DNA of 62,289 nucleotides from a virus. The position numbers and the translations under genes are program-made. Positions within the stretch are counted from its first letter, which is position 1. Every line of letters starts with the position of its first letter. The notes under the pieces are model-generated. The model ran no database searches. It had not been told where the DNA came from and saw only the letters and a program-made list of their open reading frames with translations. Of the stretch, positions 32,627 to 59,018 are shown piece by piece. Location of the stretch: positions 1-62,289 of IMG/VR virus record IMGVR_UViG_3300006921_003544; one strand, written 5' to 3'.

Positions 32627-34486
32627 ATGGAAATTTCAAACAAAATTCTATCAGACATTACTGTCTATATGAAGTACGCAAAGTTTATCCCAGACTTAAA
32701 TAGGAGAGAGACGTGGGAAGAGTTAGTAACGCGAAACAAGCAAATGCACCAAAAGAAATATCCAGCTTTGAAGCAAGATATTGAAGATGTGTATAAATTT
32801 GTATATGATAAGAAAATACTTCCTTCAATGAGAAGTATGCAATTTGCTGGTAAACCAATTGAAATTTCTCCAAATAGAGTTTATAACTGTGCATACCTTC
32901 CAATAGATTCAATCGAATCATTTAGTGAATGTATGTTTTTACTCTTAGGTGGAACGGGTGTAGGATATTCAGTACAAAAACACCATGTTGCAACACTTCC
33001 TATGATACAAAAACCATATCCTAAAAGAAAGAAAAGATATCTGATTAGTGATAGTATTGAAGGATGGGCTGATGCAGTAAAAGTTCTTATGAAATCCTAT
33101 ATGAATGGTGGTGGTAGTAGAGTTGAATTTGATTATTCAGATATTAGACCAAAAGGAGCTAGACTTGTAACATCAGGTGGTAAAGCACCAGGACCTCAAC
33201 CACTAAAAGAGTGTTTAGTTAAGATCGATGGAATGTTGAAGGAAAAAGAATCAGGAGATCAACTATCAACGATTGAAGTCCATGACATTGTATGCCATAT
33301 TGCTGATGCAGTTTTAGCTGGTGGTATTAGAAGAGCTGCATTGATTAGTTTATTTAGTGCAGACGATGATCAGATGATTGGTTGTAAAAGTGGTAACTGG
33401 TGGGAATTGAATCCACAAAGAGGTAGAGCAAATAATTCAGCATGTTTAATGAGACATAAAATAACCAAAGACTTCTTTATGGATTTATGGAAAAGAGTTG
33501 AACTATCAGGAGCAGGTGAACCAGGAATTTATCTAAACAATGATAAAGACTGGGGAACTAATCCATGTTGTGAAATTGCATTAAGACCTTATCAATTCTG
33601 TAATTTATGTGAAGTAAATGCGAGTGATATTGACTCGCAAGAAGATTACGAAGCAAGAGTTAAAGCTGCAGCTTTTATTGGAACACTCCAAGCAGGATAT
33701 ACTAATTTTCACTATTTAAGAGAAATATGGCAAGATACTACTGAAAAGGATGCATTGATCGGAATCTCAATGACAGGTATAGGTTCAGGAACAGTTTTAG
33801 GATATGATATGAAATCAGCTGCTAAGATTGTAAAGAAAGAGAATTCAAGAGTAGCAAAGTTAATAGGAATCAAATCATCAGCAAGATGTACCACTGTAAA
33901 ACCTGCAGGTACGACTTCTTTAACATTAGGAACTTCATCAGGTATTCATGCATGGCATAACGATTATTATATTAGAAGAATTAGAGTTGGTAAGAATGAA
34001 TCAATATACAAATATTTATTTGAATTCCACCCAGAACTAGTAGAGGATGAGTATTTCAGTCCGCATGATACAGCGGTAATTCAAATTCCACAAAAAGCGC
34101 CGGAGGGTTCAATATTAAGAACTGAATCTCCGTTTCAATTATTGGAAAGAGTTAAGAAAGTTGCAACTGAATGGGTATCACCAGGACATAGGAATGGATC
34201 AAATACCCACAACGTTTCAGCAACAGTTTCTTTGAGAGATAATGAGTGGGATTATGCAGGAGAATGGATGTGGGAAAACAGAAAACATTACAATGGATTA
34301 TCAGTACTACCATATAATGGAGGCTCCTACACTCAAGCTCCATTTGAAGACATTACAGAAGAAAAATATAACGAGATGTTAAAATCGTTAACTGAGATAG
34401 ATTTATCTAGTATAGTAGAAGAAAAAGATGAAACTGATCTAAAAGGCGAATTGGCATGTGCAGGTGGTGCTTGTGAAATTGTATAA
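32627..34486 (+). CDS. nrdJ: Adenosylcobalamin-dependent ribonucleotide reductase (class II, NrdJ/RTPR-like)
   Basis: Converts ribonucleotides to deoxyribonucleotides using coenzyme B12 rather than an iron subunit, supplying dNTPs for phage DNA. Active-site residues can be placed by comparison with Lactobacillus RTPR: thiyl Cys in NPCCE (C314, with E316 as general base), redox partners C88 (VYNCAY) and C325 (PYQFCNL), 11 residues after the thiyl Cys as in RTPR. A C-terminal C611/C616 pair (CAGGAC) accepts electrons from thioredoxin or similar. The 619-aa length fits the monomeric type. AGAGGAAC precedes the start. No class I subunits occur in the window. Use of B12 implies a host that makes or imports cobalamin. 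Confidence 0.88.
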   Translation: MEISNKILSDITVYMKYAKFIPDLNRRETWEELVTRNKQMHQKKYPALKQDIEDVYKFVYDKKILPSMRSMQFAGKPIEISPNRVYNCAYLPIDSIESFSECMFLLLGGTGVGYSVQKHHVATLPMIQKPYPKRKKRYLISDSIEGWADAVKVLMKSYMNGGGSRVEFDYSDIRPKGARLVTSGGKAPGPQPLKECLVKIDGMLKEKESGDQLSTIEVHDIVCHIADAVLAGGIRRAALISLFSADDDQMIGCKSGNWWELNPQRGRANNSACLMRHKITKDFFMDLWKRVELSGAGEPGIYLNNDKDWGTNPCCEIALRPYQFCNLCEVNASDIDSQEDYEARVKAAAFIGTLQAGYTNFHYLREIWQDTTEKDALIGISMTGIGSGTVLGYDMKSAAKIVKKENSRVAKLIGIKSSARCTTVKPAGTTSLTLGTSSGIHAWHNDYYIRRIRVGKNESIYKYLFEFHPELVEDEYFSPHDTAVIQIPQKAPEGSILRTESPFQLLERVKKVATEWVSPGHRNGSNTHNVSATVSLRDNEWDYAGEWMWENRKHYNGLSVLPYNGGSYTQAPFEDITEEKYNEMLKSLTEIDLSSIVEEKDETDLKGELACAGGACEIV

Positions 34487-35125: not shown

Positions 35126-35764
35126 ATGGATTTATTAAAAAAGGCAAATGGTAATCTTCCACGTACGGAAGAGGAAAAACAAAAAATGATAGAACAAGCA
35201 GCTGTACATTACGGACAGTTTCTTGAAGCACTTGGATTTGATTGGAAAGCAGATAAGCATAGCGATCGAACTCCACAAAGAGTTGCAAAAGCGTGGGTAA
35301 ATGATCTAATAATGGGATCGATATCAGAACCGCCAGTCATTACAGCGTTTCCAAATGATGAAGGTTATACTGGTTTGATATGTCAAACACGTATTCCAGT
35401 TATGAGTATGTGTGCACATCACAACTTAACATTCTCAGGAGTAGCTCATGTAGCTTATATTCCAGGAAAATCAAAAAATGATTTGGTAGTTGGTTTAAGT
35501 AAGTTGAATCGTATCGTTGACTTTTATTCAAGAAGACCTAACATTCAAGAATCACTAACAAAACAAATACATGATCACGTTGAGAAATTATGTGAAGGAC
35601 ATAGAGGGGTTGCAGTGGTTATAGAATCACAGCACAACTGTGTGAAGTGTAGAGGTATTAAACATGATTCAGTTATGAAGACTGCTCAAATGTCAGGAAG
35701 ATTTATTGAAACAGAAATGACAAGACAAGAGTTCTTTGCTTTAATTGATCAAAGTAGATACTAA
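35126..35764 (+). CDS. folE: GTP cyclohydrolase I
   Basis: Makes 7,8-dihydroneopterin triphosphate from GTP, the first step of 7-deazaguanine and folate synthesis. The 212-aa product has TPQRVAKAW (about residues 49-57), the zinc and active-site segment [18 protein letters not shown] (C96, H98, H99), [20 protein letters not shown], and the second zinc Cys in NCVKCRG. Length matches the bacterial FolE (about 220 aa). It starts with AAAGGTTATG and ends two bases before queE. The neighbourhood shows the product is meant for deazaguanine rather than folate. Confidence 0.95.
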
Positions 35765-35766
35765 AA

Positions 35767-36543
35767 ATGGCAATGAAACGAATCACAGATTATGATAAAA
35801 TCTTACCGGTACTAGAAGTATATAGATGTGTTCAATCCGAAGGAAGTAGGTTTGGACGTCCGACAATAGCAGTTAGAACAACCGGATGTACTCACCGTTG
35901 CTACTTTGGTGAAGGAGGATGGTGTGATTCATGGTACACCTCTATACATCCAGAAAAAGGAACATTTACATTTAATGATATAGTCAAAATATATGACGAG
36001 AATCCACAAGTAAAAGAAATGATGTTAACGGGTGGATCACCAACAATGCATCCAGCGTTGGTTAATGAGTTAACACACCTTGCATATGAAAGAAATATTA
36101 TTATCACTATCGAAACTGAAGGATCTCATTATATTGAAACCGATTATCCTATCGACTTGTTGTCTCTTAGCCCTAAGTTTAGTAATTCCGTTCCTGTTGT
36201 TGGGGCTATTACTCCAGCTGGGAAAGTTATTGACGAAAGATTCATAAAGACACATAATAGATTAAGACAAAATACGGATGCAATTAAAAAGATGATAGCA
36301 TTCCATAAAGACTATCATTTCAAACCAGTTTGGGATGGAACAGAATCAAACTTGCAAGAGATAGAAGCATATAGAATTGAGTTGGATATCCCAAAAGATA
36401 AAACTTATATCATGCCTGCAGGTGATACGAGAGAAACGTTAATTGAAATGTATCCGTTAGTATTCGAAATGGTAGCAGAACATGGTTATAATATGACGGG
36501 TAGAGATCATATAGTAGCCTATGACACAGAGAGAGGAGTATAA
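35767..36543 (+). CDS. queE: 7-carboxy-7-deazaguanine synthase (QueE-like radical SAM)
   Basis: Radical SAM enzyme converting 6-carboxytetrahydropterin to 7-carboxy-7-deazaguanine. Substrate-binding N-terminus VQSEGSRFGRPTIAVRTTGC (about residues 22-41), cluster cysteines C41, C45 and C53 (CTHRC, then CDSWYT), GGSPTMHP SAM-binding loop (about 90-97) and the C-terminal ETEGS and PKF motifs are present. The Cys spacing CX3CX7C differs from the common CX3CX2C. It lies between folE and queD, the enzymes that make its substrate. 258 aa, typical size. Confidence 0.9.
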   Translation: MAMKRITDYDKILPVLEVYRCVQSEGSRFGRPTIAVRTTGCTHRCYFGEGGWCDSWYTSIHPEKGTFTFNDIVKIYDENPQVKEMMLTGGSPTMHPALVNELTHLAYERNIIITIETEGSHYIETDYPIDLLSLSPKFSNSVPVVGAITPAGKVIDERFIKTHNRLRQNTDAIKKMIAFHKDYHFKPVWDGTESNLQEIEAYRIELDIPKDKTYIMPAGDTRETLIEMYPLVFEMVAEHGYNMTGRDHIVAYDTERGV

Positions 36544-36544
36544 A

Positions 36545-37033
36545 ATGGCAAAATACCAATCAACAAAACTATTTGATAATTATTCAGTAGCATTAAGACA
36601 GCATAAGGCTGCACATTCACATTGTGAATTACTTCACGGATATGCATTAAAGTTCAAAGTATGGTTTGAATCTAATGAACCATTGGAAGAAAAGCAATTA
36701 GATGAAATGAATTGGATCATGGACTATGGTGGATTCAAAGATACAGATGCAGAACCAACTCCAGGAAATGGATTAAAAAAATGGATGAACCATATGTGGG
36801 ATCATACATGTTTAATAGAGAAAGATGATCCACAGTTAGAATCATTTAAGATGATGGAAGAGTTAGGAGTTTTATCGTTAAGAGTAATGGATAAAATGGG
36901 AGCCGAATCATGTGCTAAATTAGTCTATGATAAGTTTAATGAACGAATGGCTTTGACAGGTGGTGGTAGAGTAAAAGTGGTAAAGGTAGAGTGTTGGGAA
37001 GCTGACAGAAATTCATCAATATACACAGAGTAA
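36545..37033 (+). CDS. queD: 6-carboxytetrahydropterin synthase (QueD-like)
   Basis: T-fold enzyme converting dihydroneopterin triphosphate to 6-carboxytetrahydropterin, the step between FolE and QueE. The ATG at 36545 follows GAGAGGAG; an upstream in-frame ATG inside queE is ignored. Residues 20-34 contain the Cys/His cluster (AAHSHCELLHGYAL), with the catalytic Cys and HG motif but Tyr in place of the second His of HGH, as in several phage and proteobacterial homologues. WIMDYGGFK and AESCAKLVYD follow. 162 aa. The next gene starts one base after the stop. Confidence 0.87.
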   Translation: MAKYQSTKLFDNYSVALRQHKAAHSHCELLHGYALKFKVWFESNEPLEEKQLDEMNWIMDYGGFKDTDAEPTPGNGLKKWMNHMWDHTCLIEKDDPQLESFKMMEELGVLSLRVMDKMGAESCAKLVYDKFNERMALTGGGRVKVVKVECWEADRNSSIYTE

Positions 37034-37034
37034 T

Positions 37035-37574
37035 ATGAAATTAGAAAAGATATTTAGCATGGAACAAATGATAACACAAGATCAGATTCAATCAAGAGTT
37101 AAAGAATTAGCACAACAAATAGAACAACATGAGGATAAATATAATCACGACCTACCTCCAGTATTCATATGTATTTTGAATGGAGCAGTTATGTTTTTTT
37201 CAGATCTTATGAAAAATTATCATGGACTATGTGAGATGGACTTTCTTAGAGCAAAGTCGTATAATGGAAGAGATAACTCCGGAGGAGTTAAAATATTAAA
37301 GGACATAGAAGTTGCTATTCAAGGAAAAAATGTGTATATTATAGAAGATATTATTGATACTGGTGAAACAATGAAGGAGATATATTTACATCTCAGTTCA
37401 CAATTACCAAGCAGTATCAATATTGTAACATTATTAAAACGAAAGGAAGACGATCATCCAATGGACTTTTATGGGTTCGAAATCAATGACGAATGGGTAG
37501 TTGGTTATGGACTAGACGACAATGGATTGAGTAGAAATCTTCCTGCTATTTACAAATTAGAACAAGGAGAATAA
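37035..37574 (+). CDS. Hypoxanthine/guanine phosphoribosyltransferase-like protein
   Basis: A type I phosphoribosyltransferase of 179 aa. It has the PRPP-binding motif VYIIEDIIDTGETM (about residues 98-111), an N-terminal FICILNGAVMFFSDLM segment forming a cis-peptide loop, and a final DEWVVGYGLDDNGLSRNLP, as in hypoxanthine phosphoribosyltransferases. It normally joins a purine base to PRPP. Placed in the middle of the deazaguanine genes, it may salvage guanine released by base exchange in DNA, or act on a deazaguanine base; both are inference. Confidence 0.85.
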   Translation: MKLEKIFSMEQMITQDQIQSRVKELAQQIEQHEDKYNHDLPPVFICILNGAVMFFSDLMKNYHGLCEMDFLRAKSYNGRDNSGGVKILKDIEVAIQGKNVYIIEDIIDTGETMKEIYLHLSSQLPSSINIVTLLKRKEDDHPMDFYGFEINDEWVVGYGLDDNGLSRNLPAIYKLEQGE

Positions 37575-37576
37575 AA

Positions 37577-37726
37577 ATGGTAAATTGGATAAACGGTTTT
37601 GATGCCGGAAACAAAAAAGAAAAGTATTATTTGGAATGTAGAATCGGAACATTCACTGTGTTAGAAATAAAGTGGGAGCCGGGTAAATTTAGATTCATGG
37701 TAGTTAATTTAGGATTCGAGATATAA
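37577..37726 (+). CDS. Small hypothetical protein (49 aa)
   Basis: Short frame between two clear genes, preceded by AAGGAGAATAAAA. Its stop is one base from the next ATG, so it fits perfectly in the operon. The product is beta-rich (YYLECRIGTFTVLEIKWEP, then FRFMVVNLGFEI) with Trp and no membrane helix. It is too short for family recognition. Good ribosome site and exact packing are the evidence that it is expressed. Confidence 0.6.
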   Translation: MVNWINGFDAGNKKEKYYLECRIGTFTVLEIKWEPGKFRFMVVNLGFEI

Positions 37727-37727
37727 T

Positions 37728-38222
37728 ATGTTATTAAATGCAAATCAAGTAGAGCAAATGCTTATTACAAATGGTAAAGGTAAGAAAGCTCAAGTAGGTT
37801 ATGATTTAACCGTAACAGATGTAAAATCGATTAGAGGTGGAATGTTATTTGCAGATAAAACGGTTTTAGATCGTTATGATGAAGTTAAGTTAACGACTGT
37901 CGAAAAAGCACAAGGAGATGAGAGAAATGTCTGGGTATTAACTCCTGGAGTTTATAGCGTTACTTTTGAGCAAGGATGTAAATTAGACGATAAGACTACA
38001 GCTTTTATTAGACAGAGATCATCTATTCTAAGAATGGGTGGTACTGTGACTAGCGGTGTATATGATCCAGGATTTGAAGTTGATCAGATGGGAGGTGTAA
38101 TGACACTTACTAAGACTGTTGTATTAGAACACGGAGCTAGACTAGCTCAGATTATAATGTTTGAAAACAATTCTGCTGAACTATACGACGGCCAGTGGCA
38201 AAAAGATAAAGACGTTAAGTAG
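37728..38222 (+). CDS. dUTPase / dCTP-deaminase superfamily protein
   Basis: A 164-aa member of the trimeric dUTPase-Dcd fold. Motifs: GYDLTVTDV (about residues 24-32), FIRQRSSILRMGG (about 92-104, phosphate-binding Arg-Ser), SGVYDPGFEVDQ (about 108-119), and HGARLAQIIMFE (about 144-155). It would lower dUTP or convert dCTP to dUTP, balancing pyrimidine pools. The usual deaminase Glu cannot be placed with certainty, so dUTPase and dCTP deaminase are both possible. Confidence 0.78.
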   Translation: MLLNANQVEQMLITNGKGKKAQVGYDLTVTDVKSIRGGMLFADKTVLDRYDEVKLTTVEKAQGDERNVWVLTPGVYSVTFEQGCKLDDKTTAFIRQRSSILRMGGTVTSGVYDPGFEVDQMGGVMTLTKTVVLEHGARLAQIIMFENNSAELYDGQWQKDKDVK

Positions 38223-38223
38223 T

Positions 38224-38571
38224 ATGAGAACAAATGTTATAGCAAAGTTAGAGATAGAAGGATTACATAATTGGCCAGATGCTCAAAAAGTATTTCCTGA
38301 AGTAGGATTCTTATCAAGTATGCATAGGCATAAATGGTTTATCACTGCTAAGAAAGAAGTGTTTCATGATGATAGAGATGTAGAGTTCATTATGTTCAAA
38401 AGAGATATCGAAGAATGGCTAGGACATCAGTATTATAATCTAAAGTCTAGGACACATGAGTTTGGAGCCAAGTCATGTGAAATGTTGGCGAAAGAAATCA
38501 TGAATGAGTTTGGTTGTTGTTATGTATCGGTATTTGAAGATAACGAAAATGGTGCAGAAGTATATGTATAG
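38224..38571 (+). CDS. Conserved phage protein, possible diverged T-fold (QueD-like)
   Basis: 115 aa from the ATG at 38224, one base after the preceding stop; an upstream in-frame ATG inside the dUTPase-like gene is rejected. Layout: LEIEGLHNWPDA, then FLSSMHRHKWFITAKKEVFH (about residues 29-48), DVEFIMFKRDIEEWL, and SCEMLAKEIM (about 84-93). The HRH pair, D/E-F-x-x-x-K and S-C-E-x-x-A order is reminiscent of QueD-type T-fold enzymes (HGH, DF..lK, SaE.la), but catalytic equivalence is unproven. It lies inside the deazaguanine gene cluster. Confidence 0.55.
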   Translation: MRTNVIAKLEIEGLHNWPDAQKVFPEVGFLSSMHRHKWFITAKKEVFHDDRDVEFIMFKRDIEEWLGHQYYNLKSRTHEFGAKSCEMLAKEIMNEFGCCYVSVFEDNENGAEVYV

Positions 38572-39025
38572 AGATCATATAATATTTGTTGCAGGAACAA
38601 TTTGTAGTGGAAAAACTTATGAAGCTAGATTATTAGCAGAGGATTTAGATTATGATCTCATAGAAATCTCAGATATAGTTAGAGGAATACTAGATACAAA
38701 TAAACGAGACAAACTGCAAGGACATCCAGAACTATCTACACAAATCATTTACCAAATTGGAGAACTCAGACGGACTACGAGGAAGAAAGGGGTGGTAATA
38801 AGTGGACCGAGACAAGTAGAGATCGTATCAGCATATCCAGAAGCAGAAATGATTTGGATGAATACATCTTTAGATATGTGTTTTGAACGATTTTGTAGTA
38901 GAGGAGATTCAAAGGATACTGAATTTGATCGAAATACGTTTGAAGAATATCTACTTAAAGATGATGAATTAGGATTACAAGAAGTTAAACAATATATGGA
39001 AAAGAAAAAATATGAAAAAAACTAA
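38564..39025 (+). CDS. P-loop (deoxy)nucleoside monophosphate kinase-like protein
   Basis: 153 aa from the ATG at 38564, overlapping the previous gene by eight bases. Walker A GTICSGKT (about residues 11-18), an adenylate-kinase-like IEISDIVRGIL segment, GVVISGPRQVEIV strand, MIWMNTSLDMCFERFCSRGD with possible lid Arg residues, and a charged helical end. It is small compared with adenylate kinase (about 210 aa) and lacks a full lid. A role in phosphorylating deoxynucleotides, perhaps modified ones, is plausible. The 3' end overlaps dpdA by 14 bases. Confidence 0.68.
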   Translation: MYRDHIIFVAGTICSGKTYEARLLAEDLDYDLIEISDIVRGILDTNKRDKLQGHPELSTQIIYQIGELRRTTRKKGVVISGPRQVEIVSAYPEAEMIWMNTSLDMCFERFCSRGDSKDTEFDRNTFEEYLLKDDELGLQEVKQYMEKKKYEKN

Positions 39026-39857
39026 ATTTGGTTATATAGCTCCGGTAGAGTATTTAGACCTTATACCGGAAGATGCTGATTTTCACTTGATATTAGCACA
39101 TTTACTAAAAGACAAACAATATGCAGCTTACTATAGAGAGAAAGCTGATAGAGGCGATACTATTATTTGTGATAATGGTGCATTTGAATTCAAAAAGAGT
39201 TTAGATCCAGAACCACTTATGAAATTGATATCTGATAGCGGTGTGAAGCCAACTTATGTGGTAGCGCCAGATTATCCATTTGAACCGTGGAGCGTAACAT
39301 ATGATTCAACGGTCAATTTTATTGAAATGGCTAAAGGTGAAGACTATGAGATAATGGCAGTGCCTCAATCAGAGACGGGAAATTATAAAGGATGGTTGGA
39401 ATGTTATAAACGATTAGCAGAACTTCCTGAAGTTAAGGTTATGGGAATGTCTATATTAGGAATTCCTAACGCATTTTGCGGATTAACTGGAACCAAAGAT
39501 ATATCAGCTAATAGAATATTTGCAACTGCTTATATGTGTAGAGAAGGATTAGTTTCTCAAAGAAAAGATCTTTCACATCATTATTTAGGATTAGGAGATG
39601 GTCCAAGAGAATTGATTACTCAAAGAGCCTTAGGTGTAATGGATACCAATGATAGCTCATCACCGTTCTGGCACGCAATCAATGGTGTATTGTTAGATGA
39701 TAGTACAACTGGATTAGTTGGAGGAAAATCGGAATTAGAAGTTGACTTCCACATAGAGAAGGCAGCAAAGAAATTTAGTATTGATAATAAGCAGATGTCG
39801 GTAGAAAAAATGATCAAGTATAATATCGAATGGATGCGTAATATATTGGAGAAGTAG
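39012..39857 (+). CDS. dpdA: DNA-guanine transglycosylase (DpdA-like)
   Basis: 281-aa protein of the tRNA-guanine transglycosylase superfamily, phage DpdA branch, which swaps guanine in DNA for a 7-deazaguanine base. Recognised by the TIM-barrel motifs TIICDNGAFEF (about residues 50-60, equivalent to the SGGFQ pocket of TGT), GVKPTYVVAPDYPFEP (about 76-91), IMAVPQSETGNYKGW (about 114-128), VMGMSILGIP and HYLGLGDGPREL. The zinc-binding Cys cluster of bacterial TGT is absent, as is usual for phage DpdA. With folE, queD and queE upstream it is strong evidence for deazaguanine DNA. Overlaps its neighbour by 14 bases. Confidence 0.82.
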   Translation: MKKTKFGYIAPVEYLDLIPEDADFHLILAHLLKDKQYAAYYREKADRGDTIICDNGAFEFKKSLDPEPLMKLISDSGVKPTYVVAPDYPFEPWSVTYDSTVNFIEMAKGEDYEIMAVPQSETGNYKGWLECYKRLAELPEVKVMGMSILGIPNAFCGLTGTKDISANRIFATAYMCREGLVSQRKDLSHHYLGLGDGPRELITQRALGVMDTNDSSSPFWHAINGVLLDDSTTGLVGGKSELEVDFHIEKAAKKFSIDNKQMSVEKMIKYNIEWMRNILEK

Positions 39858-39858
39858 T

Positions 39859-40014
39859 ATGGAACAACCAGATGCAAAGAAACATCAACAGATTAGTTTT
39901 GTTAAATCGGGTATTAGAATATTAGGGTATATCTTTATACCATTTAATGTAGATGTTGCAGTAACACTATTAGTAGTATCAGAAGCAGTAGGAATATTAG
40001 AAGAATTAGTTTAG
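39859..40014 (+). CDS. Small single-pass membrane protein (51 aa)
   Basis: Short frame filling the space between dpdA and the polymerase, starting one base after the dpdA stop and ending three bases before the polymerase ATG. It has a polar N-terminus (MEQPDAKKHQQ), then hydrophobic helix RILGYIFIPFNVDVAVTLLV and acidic end (ISEELV-like). I associate this 'GY.f.PFn...a...L..sE..G..EEL' pattern with small conserved phage proteins. Membrane location likely; role unknown. Confidence 0.68.
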   Translation: MEQPDAKKHQQISFVKSGIRILGYIFIPFNVDVAVTLLVVSEAVGILEELV

Positions 40015-40017
40015 GTC

Positions 40018-42531
40018 ATGTATCAAAATATTTATGTAGATTATAAAACTCGTACGGTTCATATATGGGATGATCAATTAGGTCATGTTAAGAATCCGTT
40101 AAGTAAGTATCGATATGCTTATCTCAAAGATCCGAGAGGTCAGAGAAAAGCTATCGATGGTAAGACTGTACGAGTTGTTAAACGATGGTCAGAAGAAGAC
40201 GAACGATCGGGTAAACTATATGAATATGATGTTCCAATGGAAACTAAAGCGTTGATTCACGAATATGGAGATTCGGATTTTCCTTCAACAAATCATAGAG
40301 AAGTATTTTTTGATATTGAAACTGAAATACTACAAGGATTTCCAGATTGGAGAGATCCAATTAACAAGATCACAGCAATAGCTTGGTATGAGCGTTCAAT
40401 AGATAAGTATGGTGTATTCGTATTGGATGAAAAAGACCGTGTCAAAAGTGTATCAAAGGATAATTGTGAAGTTATCATTTGTAAGACTGAAGGAGAACTC
40501 TTATATAAATTCTTAGAAAAATATATTGAATTGGATCCAACTATTCTCACAGGATGGAATATTGAGGGGTTTGATGTACCATATCTTTATAATAGAATAA
40601 AAACTGTACTCGGTGATGATTATGCAAATTCGTTAAGTCCTATAGGAAAAGTTAATTATAGAGAACATTTAGATCGTTATTATATAGAGGGAGTTTCATG
40701 TTTAGATTATCTACCATTGTATCGAAAATATACTATCGGTGAACGATCTTCGTATAGATTAGATGCAATAGGACAGACTGAAGTAGGATTGGGTAAGATT
40801 GAATATGAAGGAACATTAGATGATTTGTTTGAGAAAGATATTGATAAATATATTGAATACAACTTAAATGACGTTGAAATTGTAAAACGGTTGGACGACA
40901 AATTAAAGTTCTTAGATCTAACAAGAGCTATATGCCATAAAGGTCATGTACGATATGAATACATCCATATTACATCTAACTATCTAGAGGGAGCGATTCT
41001 CACTTATTGTAATAGATTGGGAATTGTAACTAAAAATAAACCAGAAAAAAGAAAAAGAGAAGGTAAATTCTCAGGAGCATTTGTCAAGGTTCCTAATCCT
41101 GGCAGATATGATTGGATATATGATTTAGACTTAACATCGCTATATCCATCCATCATTATGTCGCTCAACATAAGTCCAGAAACAAAAATGGGTAAAGTGG
41201 TTGATTGGGATCAAGATGCATTCAATAAAAACAAAGATAGGAATTTTACAGTACAACTCGGTAAAACAAACAAGAAAATGCATATGACCGAATATAAAAA
41301 ATTCGTAGAGGAAAAGAATTATTCAGTATCAGCAAACGGAGTTATGTTTGATAAGTCGCGACCTGGATTAGTGCCATCTATTCTGAATGCATGGTTTCAA
41401 GAAAGAGTCGAGTATAAGAATCTAAGGAAAAGATATGAATCTGAAGGAGATACAGTTAAAGCTGAATTCTACGATCAAAAGCAGTACACTCAAAAGATAC
41501 TGCTTAATTCAATGTATGGTGTATTAGGATTGGCATCTTTTAGATTCTTTGACTTAGACAATGCAGAAGCTGTAACAACAACTGGACAGACGGTTATCAA
41601 GACTACAGCAAAGATAGGTGATCAATATTATAGCAAAGAGTTAGGAAAAGAAAAAGAACATTGTATCTACACAGATACAGATTCAGTATTCTTCTCAGCT
41701 CTTCCATTAGTTAAAAAACGGTATCCAAACATTGATGTGTTTGATGATAAAGTGATGTCTGAAAAGATTCTCATCATAGCAAAAGATGTACAAGATCATA
41801 TCAATACGACTTATGATGTAATGGCAAAGAAATTGTTTAATATCAACGATCATAGATTTGACATAAAGCAAGAAACCATTGCAAAAGCAGGTATATGGAT
41901 TGCTAAGAAAAGATATGCTCAATGGATAATTAACGTTGAAGGACATCCCGTTGATAAATTAGATGTAAAAGGTATTGATGTTGTAAGATCGAATTTTCCA
42001 GCAGCTCTTAGGACCTTTATGGCGGGAGTGTTGCAAGATATTTTACAAAACAAGACAAAAGATTATATAGACAATAAAGTGTTAGACTTCAGACAAGAGA
42101 TAGAAACGCTTCCTATATTAGATGTAGCAAAACCAACTGGTGTAAAAAATATTGAAAAATATACATTAGAGTATGATGGGTCGACTCGCACAGCAACACG
42201 CAAAGGATGTCCAGCTCATGTTAAGGCTGCTATATCATATAACGATATGATTACAGCTTTGAAGCAAACCCATCTTGGAGAGATTAGAGAGAAAGAAAAG
42301 ATCAAATGGGTGTATCTCAAACCAAATCCATATGGATATGATAGTTTGGCATTGAAAGGTTATGATGATCCGATTGAAATAGTTGAGTATATAGAAAAAT
42401 ATATTGATTATAATAAACACTTTCAATCAGATTTGGAAAATAAATTATTGGCTTTTTACACTGCATTACAGTGGGGTAAATTACCAGCTAAAAATACGAA
42501 AATGATTCAAAAATTCTTCGATTTTAGTTAA
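40018..42531 (+). CDS. 43: Replicative DNA polymerase, family B (gp43-like)
   Basis: The main replicase, with proofreading. Exonuclease motifs: FFDIETEI (Exo I, about residues 96-103), TGWNIEGFDVPYLYNR (Exo II, about 178-193) and YNLNDVEIV (Exo III). Polymerase motifs: DLDLTSLYPSIIMSLN (A), KILLNSMYGVLG (B) and YTDTDSVF (C), all with catalytic Asp residues. It ends in a clamp-binding-like tail (KMIQKFFDFS). 837 aa against about 900 for T4 gp43. It starts with a GTC-ATG junction just after the small membrane gene and is followed by the clamp gene. Confidence 0.96.
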   Translation: MYQNIYVDYKTRTVHIWDDQLGHVKNPLSKYRYAYLKDPRGQRKAIDGKTVRVVKRWSEEDERSGKLYEYDVPMETKALIHEYGDSDFPSTNHREVFFDIETEILQGFPDWRDPINKITAIAWYERSIDKYGVFVLDEKDRVKSVSKDNCEVIICKTEGELLYKFLEKYIELDPTILTGWNIEGFDVPYLYNRIKTVLGDDYANSLSPIGKVNYREHLDRYYIEGVSCLDYLPLYRKYTIGERSSYRLDAIGQTEVGLGKIEYEGTLDDLFEKDIDKYIEYNLNDVEIVKRLDDKLKFLDLTRAICHKGHVRYEYIHITSNYLEGAILTYCNRLGIVTKNKPEKRKREGKFSGAFVKVPNPGRYDWIYDLDLTSLYPSIIMSLNISPETKMGKVVDWDQDAFNKNKDRNFTVQLGKTNKKMHMTEYKKFVEEKNYSVSANGVMFDKSRPGLVPSILNAWFQERVEYKNLRKRYESEGDTVKAEFYDQKQYTQKILLNSMYGVLGLASFRFFDLDNAEAVTTTGQTVIKTTAKIGDQYYSKELGKEKEHCIYTDTDSVFFSALPLVKKRYPNIDVFDDKVMSEKILIIAKDVQDHINTTYDVMAKKLFNINDHRFDIKQETIAKAGIWIAKKRYAQWIINVEGHPVDKLDVKGIDVVRSNFPAALRTFMAGVLQDILQNKTKDYIDNKVLDFRQEIETLPILDVAKPTGVKNIEKYTLEYDGSTRTATRKGCPAHVKAAISYNDMITALKQTHLGEIREKEKIKWVYLKPNPYGYDSLALKGYDDPIEIVEYIEKYIDYNKHFQSDLENKLLAFYTALQWGKLPAKNTKMIQKFFDFS

Positions 42532-43312: not shown

Positions 43313-45266
<1,954 letters not shown>

Positions 45267-49005: not shown

Positions 49006-50487
49006 ATGGAATTAAAAAACTTACCGCAAGGGACGGTTAATGATGTCCCTAAGAAAAAGAAAATTTTATTATTATCAGATGACTTGAGAATGCACTCAGG
49101 CGTAGGAACCGTTTCACGTAATCTCGTGACTGGAACGTGCGACAAATATGATTGGGCTCAACTTGGAGGTGCAATCAAACATCCTGATGGAGGCAAAGTT
49201 GTAGATATTTCAAACGATCTTCGTAAAGAGTCGGGAGTACAAGATGCATATTGTAAAATTTATCCAACTAATGGATACGGAAATCCAGAGATATTACGAC
49301 AAGTAATGGAAATGGAAAAGCCTGACATGATTATACATTTCACAGATCCAAGATTTTGGGAATGGTTATATCAAATGGAACATGAATTAAGACAAACAAT
49401 ACCTTTAGGGTATCTAAATATTTGGGATGACTTACCTTTCCCTCATTGGAATGAAAATGCATACGAATCATGTGATTTACTAATGGCAATTTCAAAACAA
49501 ACATATAATATCAACAAACACGTTTGCCAAAGAAAGCCTAGGATAGAAGGGGTAGATTTGCAATACGTTCCTCATGGAATTGACGAAACAATATTCTACC
49601 CAATACATGAAGACCATCAGGAATGGAATAATATGCAGAACTTCAAGATGTCTTTACTCGAGAACCATTCAGATTGTGATATGATATTTACGTTTAATAG
49701 CAGAAATATCAGAAGAAAGATGGTATCAGATGCATTATTAGCATATCGATTGTTTTGCGACTCTTTATCAAAAGAGGACGCTGACAAATGCTTATTCTTA
49801 TTACACACCGATGTTGTAGATCCTAATGGAACAGATTTAGCAGCATGTGCACGAGCTATTTGTCCAGACTATAAGGTTGGATTCTCATCTCAAAAGATTG
49901 ACGCGACAACGCTAAACTACTTTTACAATATATCAGATTGTGGAGTAAATACCAGCTCAGCGGAAGGATTTGGGTTGAGTTGTATGGAAACTATAATGTC
50001 GGGAACTCCAGTAATTGTAAACACGACTGGTGGATTGCAAGATCAATGTGGTTTTACTAAAGATGACGGTTCTTTAATTAAAGAAACTGACTATAATGAT
50101 AAATGGCCTAGTAATAGTAACGGTCGATATAAAGAACATGGAGAGTGGGCTTTTCCAGTATGGCCACAAATAAACTTACAAGGTTCTCCACAAACTCCAT
50201 ATATCTATGATAGTAGAGCAAGTGTAATAGACATTGCAAAGCGAATGCGTGAGGTATATAAGTTAGGATCTGATGAAAGATCCAAGAGAGGTTTAGCAGG
50301 AAGAAAGTGGGCAATAAATAATGGATTCACAAAAGTTAGTATGTGCAATGATTTGGTACGCTCAATTGAAACATGTTTTGAGAACTTCAAACCGAGAACT
50401 CGTTTTGGTATGATGGATATGTCAACACCAGCACCAACATATCCTGCAGGTATAATTTTTGATAGTATAATAGAGGGAGATAAATAA
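49006..50487 (+). CDS. Glycosyltransferase, GT-B fold (GT4-like)
   Basis: 493-aa enzyme, first of the sugar operon. N-terminal Rossmann half: KKKILLLSDDLRMHSGVGTV (about residues 17-36) with the GT4-type Gly-rich loop, then PLGYLNIWDDLPFPHWNE. Nucleotide-sugar half: QYVPHGIDETIFYP (about 186-199), MIFTFNSRNIRRKMVSDALLAY, and SSAEGFGLSCMETIMSGTPVIV (about 322-343), the donor-binding EX7E signature. Product sugar and acceptor are unknown. It shares one base with the next GT gene, so both are made together. Confidence 0.87.
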   Translation: MELKNLPQGTVNDVPKKKKILLLSDDLRMHSGVGTVSRNLVTGTCDKYDWAQLGGAIKHPDGGKVVDISNDLRKESGVQDAYCKIYPTNGYGNPEILRQVMEMEKPDMIIHFTDPRFWEWLYQMEHELRQTIPLGYLNIWDDLPFPHWNENAYESCDLLMAISKQTYNINKHVCQRKPRIEGVDLQYVPHGIDETIFYPIHEDHQEWNNMQNFKMSLLENHSDCDMIFTFNSRNIRRKMVSDALLAYRLFCDSLSKEDADKCLFLLHTDVVDPNGTDLAACARAICPDYKVGFSSQKIDATTLNYFYNISDCGVNTSSAEGFGLSCMETIMSGTPVIVNTTGGLQDQCGFTKDDGSLIKETDYNDKWPSNSNGRYKEHGEWAFPVWPQINLQGSPQTPYIYDSRASVIDIAKRMREVYKLGSDERSKRGLAGRKWAINNGFTKVSMCNDLVRSIETCFENFKPRTRFGMMDMSTPAPTYPAGIIFDSIIEGDK

Positions 50488-51776
50488 TGAGACCGTTTTT
50501 AATATTTCAAGGACCAGTAGCAACAAGATCAGGATATGGAGACCATGCGAGAGATTTACTTAGAAGTTTAATTGCCATGGATAAATATGATATAAAAGTG
50601 ATTAGTTTGAGGTGGGGTAGTACTCCAATGAATGCACTTACTGAAGATGATAAAGACATTAGCGATTTAATACATCATCAGTCAAGTGGTAATATCCCAA
50701 AGCCTGACATCTTTGTACAACTATCAGTGCCGAATGAATTCCAACCACTAGGACATTATAATATAGGAATAACAGCTGGTATGGAAACGACGTTAGTGCA
50801 CGAAGAATGGATTCAAGGATGTAATAGAATGAATCTTGTAATAGTACCGTCAAAGCATTCAAAGCAAGTATTTATAGACACAGTATATTCACGAATGGAG
50901 AATGGTGTAGAGACAGCAAAATTGCAAGTTACAACGCCAATAGAAGTCTTACTTGAAGGTGTTGATCTAAATACGTATTTTCAAACTGATGAAATTGAAC
51001 CATCTATATCATCTACATTAGATGCGATACCAGAAGACTTTTGCTTCTTGCAAATGGGACACTGGCTAGCAGGTGATCATACACACGATCGAAAAGATAT
51101 AGGAGGGTGTGTAGAATCATTTTGTAAAGCTTTCAATGATAAAAAGACAAGACCAGCGATGATATTGAAGACATCACACGCAACATTTAGTGTGATTGAT
51201 AGAGAGCAGATGCTACAGAAGATCCGAAATATTAGAAATACATTCTCAAATCCACCAAATATATATTTTCTCCACGGAGAGCTAACAGATCAAGAGGTCA
51301 ATTCATTATACAATCATCCAAAAGTAAAAGCAATGGTATCATTTACACATGGTGAAGGATATGGAAGACCGCTAGCTGAATTTAGTACTAGTGGAAAACC
51401 AATCATAGCAACATGGTGGTCAGGACATAAAGATTTCTTAAAACACTCAGTCAGACTTGTCGGTCAATTAGCTGAAGTACATGAAAGTGCAGTTTGGGAT
51501 AAAGTCATACTAAAACAATCTCAATGGTTTTATGTAAATTATAAGTTTGCAATCAAGACTATGAAGGATGTATTTAATAATTATAAAAAAGTATTAGAAA
51601 TAGGACGTAGACAACGTCATTATATCAATAAGATGGGCAATATGGACGTCATGACTAAAATATTTAAGGAAATATTAAAGAAGCATATTCCACAACAATC
51701 TCAACAAATGGAGATGAAATTGCCGTCGTTTGATTCAGTGGAGTTACCAACTCTACAAAAAGCGGGAGAAAAATAA
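50487..51776 (+). CDS. Glycosyltransferase, GT-B fold (GT4-like), second
   Basis: 429-aa partner of the preceding enzyme. FLIFQGPVATRSGYGDHARD (about residues 4-23) is the N-terminal loop; NIGITAGMETTLVHEEWI, then NLVIVPSKHSKQVF, and the donor site FTHGEGYGRPLAEFSTSGKP (about 287-306) with the EX7E-like motif. The two GT4-like genes differ, so they are not a simple recent duplication. Start shared with the previous stop (ATAATGA). Acceptor unknown. Confidence 0.85.
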   Translation: MRPFLIFQGPVATRSGYGDHARDLLRSLIAMDKYDIKVISLRWGSTPMNALTEDDKDISDLIHHQSSGNIPKPDIFVQLSVPNEFQPLGHYNIGITAGMETTLVHEEWIQGCNRMNLVIVPSKHSKQVFIDTVYSRMENGVETAKLQVTTPIEVLLEGVDLNTYFQTDEIEPSISSTLDAIPEDFCFLQMGHWLAGDHTHDRKDIGGCVESFCKAFNDKKTRPAMILKTSHATFSVIDREQMLQKIRNIRNTFSNPPNIYFLHGELTDQEVNSLYNHPKVKAMVSFTHGEGYGRPLAEFSTSGKPIIATWWSGHKDFLKHSVRLVGQLAEVHESAVWDKVILKQSQWFYVNYKFAIKTMKDVFNNYKKVLEIGRRQRHYINKMGNMDVMTKIFKEILKKHIPQQSQQMEMKLPSFDSVELPTLQKAGEK

Positions 51777-53500: not shown

Positions 53501-54375
53501 TGAAAGATTTGGTTATAGGTGCAATTGGTGATTACCAATTCGATCAAATTCAAAATTGGGTAAATTCATTAAATCAAAGTGGATTCGAAGGAGATAAGAT
53601 TTTGATATCGTACAATTCGAATCAAGAGCTTGTTGAGAAATTAACTGAAAACGGTATCGAAGTTTACAGCATGCATGCTGATGCTAAAGGACAACGAGTA
53701 GAACGATTTATAACGAATAGTGGTGAAGTAAATGCATCAAATGCTCATTTATTGGTACATAATGTAAGATTCTTTCACATGTGGCAATTATTAAAACAAT
53801 TTCAAACAGAAGGACGAACATTCAAAAGAATAATCCACACAGATGTAAGAGATGTTATATTTCAAAATAACCCAAGTGATTGGTTAGATATGAATATGAG
53901 ATCTGAAATTGTATCACCATCAGAAAGTGTAAAGTATTGGGATGAACCTTGGAATAGAGATAATTTTAGAAGATCGTTTGGAGATGTAACTTTTATGTTC
54001 CAAGCTCATGAAATGTTAGTATCCAATGTTGGATCATTTGCAGCTAAATATGATACTGGAATTGATCTATGCCTTCACATATACTTGCTAACAGTCGGAC
54101 AGTGGCACACAGATCAACCAGCTTTCAATCTTATAGTCAATACTGTATATAAGGATAGAACTCAGTGGGCAGGAACGAAAGAGCATTGGGCTGCACAAAT
54201 AGGAGCTTTGATTGAAGCTAGACCTAAACTAGGAGATGCAGTTTTAGAACCAGCTCCAACAATGAATGAGGATGGATTAGTAGTAAACGAAAATGGTAAT
54301 GTATTTCCACTACTACATCAATATGAACGAGTACCTGGATGGTATGATAAACTTACGGAAAAATATTCAAAATGA
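53500..54375 (+). CDS. Glycosyltransferase-like protein (GT-A, DVRD motif)
   Basis: 291 aa. KDLVIGAIGDYQFDQIQNW (about residues 2-20) begins a Rossmann-like half; RIIHTDVRDVIFQNNPSDWL (about 109-128) has an Asp-x-Arg-Asp metal site as in a group of nucleotide-sugar transferases. QWHTDQPAFNLIVN and FPLLHQYERVPGWYDKL complete the pattern. Sugar donor unknown. It overlaps its downstream neighbour by four bases (ATGA). The GT label is inferred from the metal motif and the company. Confidence 0.68.
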   Translation: MKDLVIGAIGDYQFDQIQNWVNSLNQSGFEGDKILISYNSNQELVEKLTENGIEVYSMHADAKGQRVERFITNSGEVNASNAHLLVHNVRFFHMWQLLKQFQTEGRTFKRIIHTDVRDVIFQNNPSDWLDMNMRSEIVSPSESVKYWDEPWNRDNFRRSFGDVTFMFQAHEMLVSNVGSFAAKYDTGIDLCLHIYLLTVGQWHTDQPAFNLIVNTVYKDRTQWAGTKEHWAAQIGALIEARPKLGDAVLEPAPTMNEDGLVVNENGNVFPLLHQYERVPGWYDKLTEKYSK

Positions 54376-55070
54376 AGTATTCGATTATAATCACATATAG
54401 GGATCGTGAGGAACATCTTAAAAAATTACTACCACGATTAGAGGAAAGATTCAAAGGAACAGAATATGAGATCATTATATCAGAACAGTTGAGTGATGGT
54501 AAATTTAGAAAAAATACATTATACAATATAGCAGGTGATTATGCAAAAGGCGACACTCTAATATTTCACGATGTAGACCACTACCCATCAGATAATGTAT
54601 CGTATGATGTTGTAGATAATAAGCCAACATATCCAGTTAGGAATGTTGTGTTTTTAGATAAAGATGATCAACCGGTAGGAAGAATGCATGTGCCATTAGG
54701 GTATAATAATTTTCACATTGATGTGGGTGATCACTCTGGAGGAGTATTTATTCTTTCACGTGAGCATTGGAATACAATGAAAGGTCTGAATTCAATGTAT
54801 GTTGGTTGGGGTAAAGAAGATGATGATACCCGTGCAAGAGCTCGACATAAACTGCAAACGGATTGGCATAGAAATAAAGATGGAAAATTTTACGCATTCC
54901 ATCATGAAGACAATAAACCACTAGACACGGATCCAGACTTCATAAATAATGAAAAACTTCTACATGAAGGTGGACAATATGCAGATGTTGATTTCAGAAT
55001 AGAAGATTCTAAAGAACAATTTGATATACATAATAACGGACGAATAGTATGGATAAAAGTACATATATAG
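54372..55070 (+). CDS. Glycosyltransferase (GT7/galactosyltransferase-like)
   Basis: 232 aa, with the hallmarks of beta-1,4-galactosyltransferase-type enzymes: YSIIITYRDREEHLKKLLP (about residues 3-21), TLIFHDVDHYP (DVD metal site, about 62-72), and GGVFILSREHWNTMKGLN then VGWGKEDDD (about 119-154), the GWGxEDDD acceptor-site signature. It overlaps the radical SAM gene by 22 bases. It probably adds galactose or N-acetylgalactosamine to another sugar in this pathway; specificity cannot be read. Confidence 0.83.
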   Translation: MKYSIIITYRDREEHLKKLLPRLEERFKGTEYEIIISEQLSDGKFRKNTLYNIAGDYAKGDTLIFHDVDHYPSDNVSYDVVDNKPTYPVRNVVFLDKDDQPVGRMHVPLGYNNFHIDVGDHSGGVFILSREHWNTMKGLNSMYVGWGKEDDDTRARARHKLQTDWHRNKDGKFYAFHHEDNKPLDTDPDFINNEKLLHEGGQYADVDFRIEDSKEQFDIHNNGRIVWIKVHI

Positions 55071-57043: not shown

Positions 57044-57784
57044 ATGAAGCAAATTAGAAATTGGTTAAATGATTATTTAATTGAAAATAACTTAAAAACA
57101 TTTGTAATAGGAATATCAGGTGGTATCGATTCTGCATTAACATCTACAATATGTGCAGAAACGGGACTAAACACTATCGTAGTTTCAATGCCAATACATC
57201 AACATCCAGATCAACTATCTAGAGCTCATAGACATATTAAATGGCTAAAGGATAAGTACAGCAACGTTTCAAGTATAGAGATAAATTTATCACATGTATA
57301 TGATACTTTTGAAATGATGTTTGCTGATAATGAAAACAAACTTGCATTGGCAAACTCAAGAGCAAGATTAAGAATGACTACTTTATATCAAATAGCTCAA
57401 ACTAATAATGGATTAGTAGTAGGAACGGGAAACAAGGTAGAAGATTTCGGAGTTGGATTCTTTACAAAATATGGTGATGGAGGAGTTGATATATCTCCAA
57501 TAGCTGATTTAATGAAATCGGAAGTTAGAGAGATGGCGAAGGAGTTAGAAATTATAGATGAGATTATCAAAGCTAAACCAACAGATGGTTTATGGGGAGA
57601 TGATCGGACAGATGAAGACCAATTAGGTGCAACATATGATGAGTTGGAATGGGCAATGGGATATGAAGAAGGCTTTACATTATCAGAAAGACAACAAGAA
57701 GTTTTAGATATATACAATAAATTTAATAAACAGAACCAACACAAAATGGTAAATATACCAGTTTGTAAAATAAGGAGAGCGTAA
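57044..57784 (+). CDS. nadE: NAD+ synthetase (NadE)
   Basis: 246-aa ATP-pyrophosphatase. FVIGISGGIDSALT (SGGIDS loop at residues 25-30) and the NadE-specific GTGNKVEDFGVGFFTKYGD (about 126-144), then ISPIADLMKSEVR, KPTDGLW and DEDQLGATYDELE. No glutaminase domain, so it uses ammonia. It converts nicotinate adenine dinucleotide to NAD+. The pattern separates it from QueC, which shares the SGG loop. It sits between the radical SAM and UDP-sugar dehydrogenase genes, the latter an NAD+ consumer. It might also replace NAD+ destroyed by host defence. Confidence 0.9.
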   Translation: MKQIRNWLNDYLIENNLKTFVIGISGGIDSALTSTICAETGLNTIVVSMPIHQHPDQLSRAHRHIKWLKDKYSNVSSIEINLSHVYDTFEMMFADNENKLALANSRARLRMTTLYQIAQTNNGLVVGTGNKVEDFGVGFFTKYGDGGVDISPIADLMKSEVREMAKELEIIDEIIKAKPTDGLWGDDRTDEDQLGATYDELEWAMGYEEGFTLSERQQEVLDIYNKFNKQNQHKMVNIPVCKIRRA

Positions 57785-57785
57785 A

Positions 57786-59018
57786 ATGAATGTAGGTTTT
57801 ATAGGATTAGGGAAATTAGGATTACCTTGTGCATTAGTGATTGATAGCAAAGGACATAATGTATTTGGATATGATATCAATCCACAAGTAAAAGATATAT
57901 TAGATACAGGAGAGATCCCATATAGGGAAGCAGGAACACCGGAATTATTACAAAACCATAACATACAATGGTCAAGCGTATCAGATGTAGTATCTAATTC
58001 AGATATTATATTTGTACCAATACAAACACCTCATGACGAGAGATTTGAAGGAACAACAAGACTACCAGAAGAAAGAGTAGATTTTGACTACACATATCTT
58101 AAAGCAGGTATGAAATCATTATCAGACGAAATTGAGAAACAGGGTGAAGATAAGATTGTTATAATCATATCAACAGTTCTACCAGGTACTGTTCGTAGAG
58201 AGATTAAACCTTTATTAAGTAGGCATGTAAAATTATGTTACAATCCATTCTTCATTGCAATGGGTACTACAAGACACGATTTTGAAAATCCTGAGTTTGT
58301 TTTATTCGGAATGGATGATGAGGAAGCGTATGACAAAGCAAAAGAATTATATGCAACAGTTCATGATAAACCAGTTTATAAATGTACCATTGAAGAAGCT
58401 GAAATGATTAAAGTAACATATAATACTTACATCACAATGAAAATTTGTTTAGCTAATGTAGTCATGGAAGCATCTCATAAATTAGATAATGTAAATTGTG
58501 ATAATGTTATGAAGGGATTATTTTTAGGAACAGAAAGATTGATAAGCTCTAAATATCTTATAGGTGGTATGGGAGATGGTGGAGGATGTCATCCTAGAGA
58601 TAATATTGCTTTATCATGGATGGCTAAGAAATTAGATATGAGATATGACTGGTATGAAAATCTAATGATCTGCAGAGAAGAGCAGACAGAATGGCTAGCA
58701 GATCTAATTATCGAGTATAAAAGTGACATGCCAATAACTATATTAGGAAAGTGTTTCAAGAAAGAAACGAATCTTACAGTTGGTAGTCCTTCTATCTTAC
58801 TTAAAAATTTATTAGAAGAAAGAGGTGAACAAGTTGATATGTATGATCCTTGGGTAGATGATCACGATATAGAGCTAACAGAACAATGTTATTTCATTGG
58901 AACAAATCACGATAAATTTCTAGATTATAAATTCCCACCAGGAGCAGTTGTTATCGATCCTTGGAGAATGATTGAAAAGCAAGATGGAGTTGCTGTAATA
59001 AGTGTAGGAAAATCATAG
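57786..59018 (+). CDS. ugd: UDP-glucose/GDP-mannose 6-dehydrogenase family enzyme
   Basis: 410 aa. NAD-binding GFIGLGKLGLP (residues 4-14), IFVPIQTPHDERFEG, IIISTVLPGTVRREI, CYNPFFIAMGTT, KVTYNTYITMKICLANVVME, and the catalytic-Cys motif GDGGGCHPRDN (C268). It oxidises a nucleotide sugar to the uronic acid with two NAD+. Substrate could be UDP-glucose, UDP-GlcNAc or GDP-mannose. The next gene begins at a GTG at its stop. Preceded by nadE with a one-base gap. The product probably feeds the glycosyltransferases of this island. Confidence 0.88.
   Translation: MNVGFIGLGKLGLPCALVIDSKGHNVFGYDINPQVKDILDTGEIPYREAGTPELLQNHNIQWSSVSDVVSNSDIIFVPIQTPHDERFEGTTRLPEERVDFDYTYLKAGMKSLSDEIEKQGEDKIVIIISTVLPGTVRREIKPLLSRHVKLCYNPFFIAMGTTRHDFENPEFVLFGMDDEEAYDKAKELYATVHDKPVYKCTIEEAEMIKVTYNTYITMKICLANVVMEASHKLDNVNCDNVMKGLFLGTERLISSKYLIGGMGDGGGCHPRDNIALSWMAKKLDMRYDWYENLMICREEQTEWLADLIIEYKSDMPITILGKCFKKETNLTVGSPSILLKNLLEERGEQVDMYDPWVDDHDIELTEQCYFIGTNHDKFLDYKFPPGAVVIDPWRMIEKQDGVAVISVGKS

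Follow-up and report, generated by a model that had tools for sequence, protein, structure and literature searches.

The window, a 62-kb open-ended fragment (62,289 nucleotides) from a bacterial virus, encodes a gene cassette for 7-deazaguanine modification of DNA that lacks QueC. This assignment, predictive as to gene function throughout, has good support from protein folds, from the order of the genes and from relatives, in line with the original prediction from the sequence. The reading that we favor, at a probability of roughly 0.6, is that the cassette replaces guanine with a 7-deazaguanine. FolE, QueD and QueE would convert GTP to 7-carboxy-7-deazaguanine (CDG); a QueD-like T-fold paralogue, taking the place of QueC, would bind CDG through zinc and an anchoring Glu and remove or alter its carboxylate, with 7-deazaguanine as the simplest product; DpdA, of a type linked with complete replacement, would exchange guanine for the modified base, probably on replicated DNA; a hypoxanthine-guanine phosphoribosyltransferase (HGPRT) would turn the freed guanine into GMP; and a kinase and a dUTPase-like enzyme would manage the nucleotide pool. 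The analysis indicates that phage 7-deazaguanine DNA chemistry has a branch independent of QueC, apparently widespread among environmental phages. It proposes one particular QueD-like protein as candidate for the missing step and raises the question of whether full guanine replacement takes place on DNA or in the nucleotide pool.

Organization of the Cassette

The proposed folE-queE-queD ... dpdA set was recovered by family matches and, for DpdA, by predicted structure; folE, queE and queD (35126-37033) share one co-directional block with dpdA (39012-39857). The features are as follows.

32627..34486, + strand: B12-dependent ribonucleotide reductase (PF02867 and PF21995), just upstream of the cassette
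35126..35764, + strand: folE, GTP cyclohydrolase I (PF01227, E 6.9e-46; phrog_2197)
35767..36543, + strand: queE, CDG synthase (phrog_2076, E 1.6e-47)
36545..37033, + strand: queD, CPH4 synthase (phrog_2389, E 2.4e-31; the ORF opens at 36521)
37035..37574, + strand: HGPRT (TIGR01203, 162.6 bits, above the cutoff of 150)
37577..37726, + strand: 49-aa ORF with no assigned function, read from the sequence
37728..38222, + strand: dCTP deaminase/dUTPase-fold NTP pyrophosphohydrolase (PF22769, E 1.1e-13)
38224..38571, + strand: QueD-like T-fold paralogue (phrog_17812; AlphaFold2 model with the E. coli QueD fold)
about 38564..39025, + strand: P-loop nucleotide kinase (AAA_18; PF13238, E 8.5e-08)
39012..39857, + strand: DpdA, TGT-fold guanine transglycosylase of the CP220 subfamily (AlphaFold2 fold, CP220 homologue)
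39859..40014, + strand: 51-aa ORF with no assigned function, read from the sequence
40018..42531, + strand: putative family-B DNA polymerase (conserved motifs, ORF), directly downstream of the cassette
57044-57784: NAD synthase, the only ATP-PPase in the window

The block had also been described as a single operon behind one promoter, a description that the promoter scan does not bear out: sigma-70-like matches occur at the level of shuffled sequence (52 found, 52.9 expected). The ribonucleotide reductase possibly supplies deoxynucleotides, and the polymerase, to which ORFs in related phages are similar, would be the enzyme that copies or incorporates the modified base. The HGPRT, which had gone unnamed earlier, may recycle guanine freed by DpdA; a phosphoribosyltransferase (PRTase) is present in 11 of 19 and in about 65 of 80 related cassettes.

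The radical-SAM cysteines of QueE follow a C-x3-C-x7-C spacing that phages immuto and phiST share; this comes from a narrower alignment, a broad one having given no searchable stretch. QueD retains its catalytic Cys and Asp-His, and its HGH is replaced by HGY. The reference for this residue check was what we take to be the E. coli QueD sequence, and the same residues as in this reference are found in the recorded QueD sequences of CAjan, 9g, Dp-1 and Bipper.

A CP220-Type DpdA and Its Nucleotide Enzymes

The sequence libraries match DpdA only to phrog_20335 ("unknown"), and direct searches with it, by phmmer and by profile, brought up no TGT among PDB sequences, so its recognition required structure. 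The AlphaFold2 model (pLDDT 94.8) has the TGT fold over its whole length (Z 17.9 over 244 aa, 3.8 A), and its best 50 structure matches are all TGT. The conserved Asp residues and the HxLG motif of the TGT superfamily are both present: Asp54, Asp87, His190, Leu192, Gly193, Glu200 and Asp214 are invariant in 11 sequences including CP220, their correspondence to the TGT catalytic residues being drawn by motif rather than by side-chain superposition. The subfamily profile matches CP220 (E 3.4e-41) and has no match in 9g, CAjan, nt-1, Dp-1 or Bipper; hhalign of the DpdA alignment against CAjan DpdA was likewise not significant. In Campylobacter phage CP220, dG is reported to be 100% replaced by dADG (PMC8306585). 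As in the window, a phosphohydrolase and a kinase flank DpdA in this phage; unlike the window, it has QueC, lacks the QueD-like paralogue, and has its pathway genes scattered. Enterobacteria phage 9g and Escherichia phage CAjan also combine FolE, QueD and QueE with a DpdA, and their DNA is modified with dG+ or dPreQ0 (PMC6884629), but they use Gat-QueC or QueC, their DpdA is of a different subfamily, and their annotated cassettes are without nucleotide enzymes.

An NTP phosphohydrolase and a nucleotide kinase, each drawn from several unrelated families, usually flank DpdA of the CP220 type. The phosphohydrolase is DCD/dUTPase in the window, Chryseobacterium phage MA9V-3 and D479, MazG in phiST, PRA-PH in immuto and HD in CP220, and in 51 of 52 IMG/VR loci a DCD/dUTPase-like gene is found no farther than 3.5 kb from DpdA. 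The kinase, of the AAA_18, AAA_28 or DNMK family, adjoins DpdA in phiST, D479, Ahp1, immuto and CP220. The cassette annotations of CAjan, 9g and Dp-1 include neither enzyme.

In the 5hmC pathway of T4, a phosphohydrolase, a base-modifying enzyme and a dNMP kinase (gp56, gp42 and gp1) work together. From general knowledge, the set in the window resembles this one, although T4 modifies dCMP by hydroxymethylation and not by base exchange. The likeness makes exchange at the nucleotide level, before replication, a live alternative, one that we hold tentatively and rank clearly below exchange on DNA. The phosphohydrolase would take dGTP to dGMP, the CP220-type DpdA would put the deaza base in the place of guanine on dGMP, and the kinase would drain the product to the diphosphate, with the DNA polymerase building the genome from the modified triphosphate. 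Such a route would explain complete replacement, as reported for the dG of CP220, and is favored by the recurrence of both enzymes, from changing families, beside this type of DpdA but not in the CAjan, 9g and Dp-1 annotations. Against it, every characterized TGT relative that we know of acts on nucleic acid, and phages often carry dUTPases, MazG and dNMP kinases. In many relatives no kinase is detected (8 of 39 match the AAA_18 model), and neither enzyme is seen beside the cassette of an Amycolatopsis prophage. Were a CP220-type DpdA to exchange dGMP, it would, to the best of our knowledge, be the first transglycosylase shown to act before replication; Hutinet et al. consider, for Campylobacter phages, a route by way of modified dGTP (PMC6884629).

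A QueD-Like Paralogue in the Place of QueC

The gene at 38224-38571, left as "unknown" in the original prediction, encodes a QueD-fold protein. Its AlphaFold2 model (pLDDT 96.1) superposes on E. coli QueD with Z 11.9 over 103 aa at 2.1 A, and there is a weak sequence link to PH0634. Both the T-fold and the zinc-binding His triad of QueD are found in it, and the alignment shows the His-His-His triad and the base-anchoring Glu to be invariant. The catalytic Cys and the Asp-His dyad of QueD are absent, with Leu standing in for the Cys and Gly for the Asp. A split QueD, in which the paralogue would bring the zinc to a QueD that no longer has ligands for it, is disfavored because the same HGY-type QueD also occurs in immuto and locus L184, both of which lack the paralogue. 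Bipper gp4, which adjoins DpdA, was rejected as a further copy.

In 39 of 40 related loci, no more than 3.5 kb separates the paralogue from DpdA; in X1, ACP17 and BUCT-ZZ01 the paralogue also adjoins other TGT-like proteins. In the Amycolatopsis prophage it is adjacent to a DpdA-like protein, QueD, QueE and FolE. Cellulophaga phage phiST holds queD, queE, folE, the paralogue, a kinase and DpdA in one block with no QueC, as in the window, but its gene order differs, MazG stands instead of the dUTPase-like gene, no PRTase is seen in the cassette stretch, and its DpdA is 26% identical. Flavobacterium phage vB_FspM_immuto resembles the window in its close QueE, PRTase, kinase and DpdA subfamily and differs in having QueC, a gene annotated QueF and a formyltransferase-like gene, and no paralogue. 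In loci L128 and L140, a dUTPase-like gene, the paralogue, a kinase, FolE and DpdA replace the immuto-type genes of phages with near-identical QueE.

QueC itself is absent from the 62-kb record by the PF06508 profile search, as had been claimed, and also from a relative of 81.7 kb (G001; ∼68-88% nucleotide identity per aligned piece); the control search found it in 12 of 14 bacterial genomes. The single SGG-loop enzyme is indeed the NAD synthase at 57044-57784. Because the record is an open-ended fragment, the absence holds for these 62 kb only. Across related records, QueC and the paralogue are mutually exclusive: the paralogue occurs in 0 of 38 QueC-bearing records (6 isolates and 32 from IMG/VR), and QueC in 0 of 47 IMG/VR relatives of this cassette. 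A "QueC" match in X1 looks by sequence like NAD synthase.

The occurrence of the paralogue in QueC's place across dozens of phages indicates a dedicated step on CDG and makes the protein the best candidate for CDG processing, most simply, we infer, by decarboxylation to 7-deazaguanine. DpdL, reportedly predicted by Cui et al. (2023) to be a CDG decarboxylase, has a proposed step that would fit the paralogue. Several points weigh against the favored reading. We know of no precedent for decarboxylation by a zinc T-fold enzyme. For tubercidin synthesis, a UbiD-type enzyme has been proposed (PMC6112128). Glycosyltransferase-like genes neighbor the paralogue in PA5oct, ACP17, X1 and BUCT-ZZ01, and if they act on this base they would require an attachment point, which bare 7-deazaguanine does not offer. 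The paralogue occurs without FolE or QueE in Faecalibacterium phage Roos and together with a divergent QueC-like ATP-PPase of ambiguous QueC identity in Vibrio phage D479, and a QueC could sit outside the fragment.

Insertion of CDG itself (dCDG), with the paralogue as an accessory such as a carrier delivering CDG to DpdA, seems to us unlikely. FolE, QueD and QueE are the only certain enzymes here, the paralogue is without QueD catalytic residues, and its partner is nearly always TGT-like, even from unrelated subfamilies; yet the invariant zinc triad and anchor Glu suggest chemistry and not mere binding. Less probable again is the insertion of preQ0 or a derivative made with host QueC. QueC is widespread in bacteria, as the control genomes illustrate, but its use would leave unexplained the systematic replacement of QueC by a QueD-like gene across many lineages. 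The products first listed (the carboxy form, a derivative, or preQ0 from host QueC) are thus narrowed, the last being less likely given the paralogue. That the genes raise host queuosine or folate metabolism, with DpdA acting on tRNA, is highly improbable: FolE is common to folate synthesis and Hutinet et al. suggest boosting of tRNA-Q, for phages without DpdA (PMC6884629), but the DpdA here has neither a PF01702 match nor the CxCxxC zinc motif of tRNA-TGT in its sequence, and its subfamily is the one found in CP220, whose dG is reported to be fully replaced.

Restriction Sites

If guanine is replaced as in the favored reading, the loss of N7 would protect sites that contain G against restriction. 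Site avoidance had been set aside as the protection strategy from the abundance of GATC and GGATCC, and this stands for both sites, which are near their expected counts (297 against 319 and 13 against 18, respectively). It does not extend to three TTAA-centered palindromes, which are purged to zero: ATTAAT and TTTAAA, both G-free, and CTTAAG, the only depleted site among 35 testable G-containing palindromes.

DpdA and the Cassette

Every gene named in the original prediction was recovered in place and on a single strand, and family library searches identified FolE, QueE and QueD as unambiguous members of their families. QueC is indeed absent from the 62,289-base record, whose ends are unclosed, while the claim of a single promoter drew no support from a promoter scan. 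The features are as follows.

35126-39857, +: cassette of folE, queE, queD, HGPRT, DCD/dUTPase-like gene, QueD-like paralogue, P-loop kinase and dpdA
38224-38571, +: the QueD-like paralogue, within the cassette

Searches of Pfam, NCBIfam and PDB sequences did not recognize the predicted DpdA, and in PHROGs it matched only a family of unknown function. Its AlphaFold2 model (48 input sequences, mean pLDDT 94.8) has a tRNA-guanine transglycosylase (TGT) as top Foldseek match, followed mostly by TIM-barrel aldolases; in a second structural alignment all 50 best entries were TGT (Z 17.9, 244 residues, 3.8 Å). Relatives occur in 10 phage records and 225 IMG/VR stretches, the best 80 of which form our IMG/VR set. 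Cui et al. are said to have described, in 2023, a DpdA3 subfamily that permits complete replacement. A nine-member DpdA profile matches CPT_0056 of CP220 (E 3.4e-41); it has no match in 9g, CAjan, nt-1, Dp-1 or Bipper. A passage in PMC8306585, citing Crippen et al. 2019, reports dG in CP220 as fully replaced by dADG.

A QueD-like Paralogue

The original prediction passed over the ORF at 38224-38571 (phrog_17812, function unknown in PHROGs), which the model now places in the QueD fold. The model (pLDDT 96.1) best matches QueD (Z 11.9, 103/114 residues, 2.1 Å), and the sequence profile weakly matches the PTPS-family protein PH0634 over its full length. His14, His33, His35 and Glu85 (protein numbers minus one, as the model lacks the initiator Met) align with the zinc ligands and base-anchoring Glu of QueD and are invariant in 44 relatives. 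Since the catalytic Cys and Asp of QueD are substituted in the alignment, the protein is predicted to have the QueD fold yet not to be a CPH4 synthase. Of 40 IMG/VR loci with enough flank, 39 have it within 3.5 kb of DpdA.

We propose that the paralogue acts on CDG in place of QueC, converting it, most simply by decarboxylation, to the 7-deazaguanine that would replace guanine in phage DNA. Ten of the 12 phage isolates carrying it have no QueC match; X1 has one below threshold, to an ORF resembling NAD synthase in sequence, and D479 a partial one, to a divergent ATP-PPase. The paralogue was not found in six QueC-bearing isolates (9g, CAjan, nt-1, Dp-1, CP220, immuto). QueC is absent from 47 IMG/VR records of the DpdA set and present in 32 of 44 chosen by QueE; none of these 32 has the paralogue, and the two records of that set that do have no QueC. 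In two loci with QueE 95% and 91% identical to that of immuto (L128, L140), a block of dUTPase-like, paralogue, kinase, FolE and DpdA genes takes the place of the FolE, PRA-PH hydrolase, DpdA, formyltransferase and QueF genes of immuto-type phages. The records compared are phylogenetically non-independent, and the contigs among them are fragments. Bipper carries FolE and QueE, and neither QueC nor the paralogue was found in it. The ATP-PPase of Vibrio phage D479 (153300-154700) is QueC-like; it has a CGKCAKC cysteine cluster, and SGIDS replaces SGGxDS.

Thirty related loci were found in prokaryote assemblies, many also with FolE, QueD or QueE; in an Amycolatopsis prophage, DpdA-like protein, paralogue, QueD, QueE and FolE are consecutive. 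In ACP17, X1 and BUCT-ZZ01 the paralogue has TGT-like proteins of other types and GT4-type glycosyltransferases nearby, as it also does in PA5oct, where it is assigned by motif. In Faecalibacterium phage Roos the paralogue and a DpdA-like protein occur with no FolE or QueE found, a gene content that decarboxylation of CDG to 7-deazaguanine leaves unexplained. A GT4 glycosyltransferase-like protein also adjoins the paralogue in Magnetospirillum and Aurantimonas loci (judged by eye) and in Sinorhizobium phage Phosso (weak Pfam match). A contig binned as Candidatus Nitrosopelagicus, with a QueD-like gene 85% identical, is probably a misbinned relative of the window phage.

Nucleotide Enzymes beside DpdA

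The usual neighbors of CP220-type DpdA are an NTP phosphohydrolase and a P-loop kinase. Of 52 IMG/VR loci, 51 have a DCD-type gene near DpdA, but only 8 of 39 have the AAA_18 kinase there.

Nucleotide enzymes near DpdA
Window: DCD + AAA_18
phiST: MazG + AAA_18
MA9V-3: DCD + kinase (by HMM)
immuto: PRA-PH + AAA_28
CP220: HD + AAA_28
D479, Ahp1 and related locus L083: DNMK kinase

That unrelated families fill equivalent positions suggests that the function itself is required, and on this basis DpdA might act before replication, exchanging the base on dGMP that the phosphohydrolase would supply and passing the product to the kinase. Neighboring genes do not prove that DpdA acts on nucleotides, however, and we consider this route less likely than exchange on replicated DNA. 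The cassette HGPRT, of standard type by NCBIfam, would salvage the guanine released; the precedent of TubE, a PRTase of tubercidin synthesis that acts on CDG itself (PMC6112128), suggests that it may act on CDG instead.

Restriction-Site Palindromes

Against maximal-order Markov expectations, ATTAAT (33.8 expected), TTTAAA (31.7) and CTTAAG (9.8) are all absent from the window, and variants that differ from them by one base, TTTAAT among them, occur more often than expected. An 81.7 kb relative (G001, 68-88% identity in aligned pieces) keeps 52 ATTAAT, 38 TTTAAA and 2 CTTAAG, so the loss of ATTAAT and TTTAAA is recent. Because guanine modification could not shield sites without G, a purge of G-free sites fits replacement of guanine by 7-deazaguanine. 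The absence of CTTAAG, which contains G, is at odds with it; this was the only hexamer depleted at P < 0.001 among 35 G-containing palindromes with an expectation of at least 5.

Other Genes in the Window

The phage encodes an NAD synthase (PF02540, 57044-57784). Immediately 3′ of the replication genes are ORFs that we read as GroES-like and GroEL-like (43313-45266); GroEL-like genes also lie downstream of the cassette in several relatives. A cluster of sugar genes (49006-51773, 54372-55067, 57786-59015 and 60558-61352) comprises two GT4-type glycosyltransferase-like genes, a GT7-type galactosyltransferase-like gene, a UDP-glucose dehydrogenase and an epimerase, whose target may be a surface glycan or DNA.
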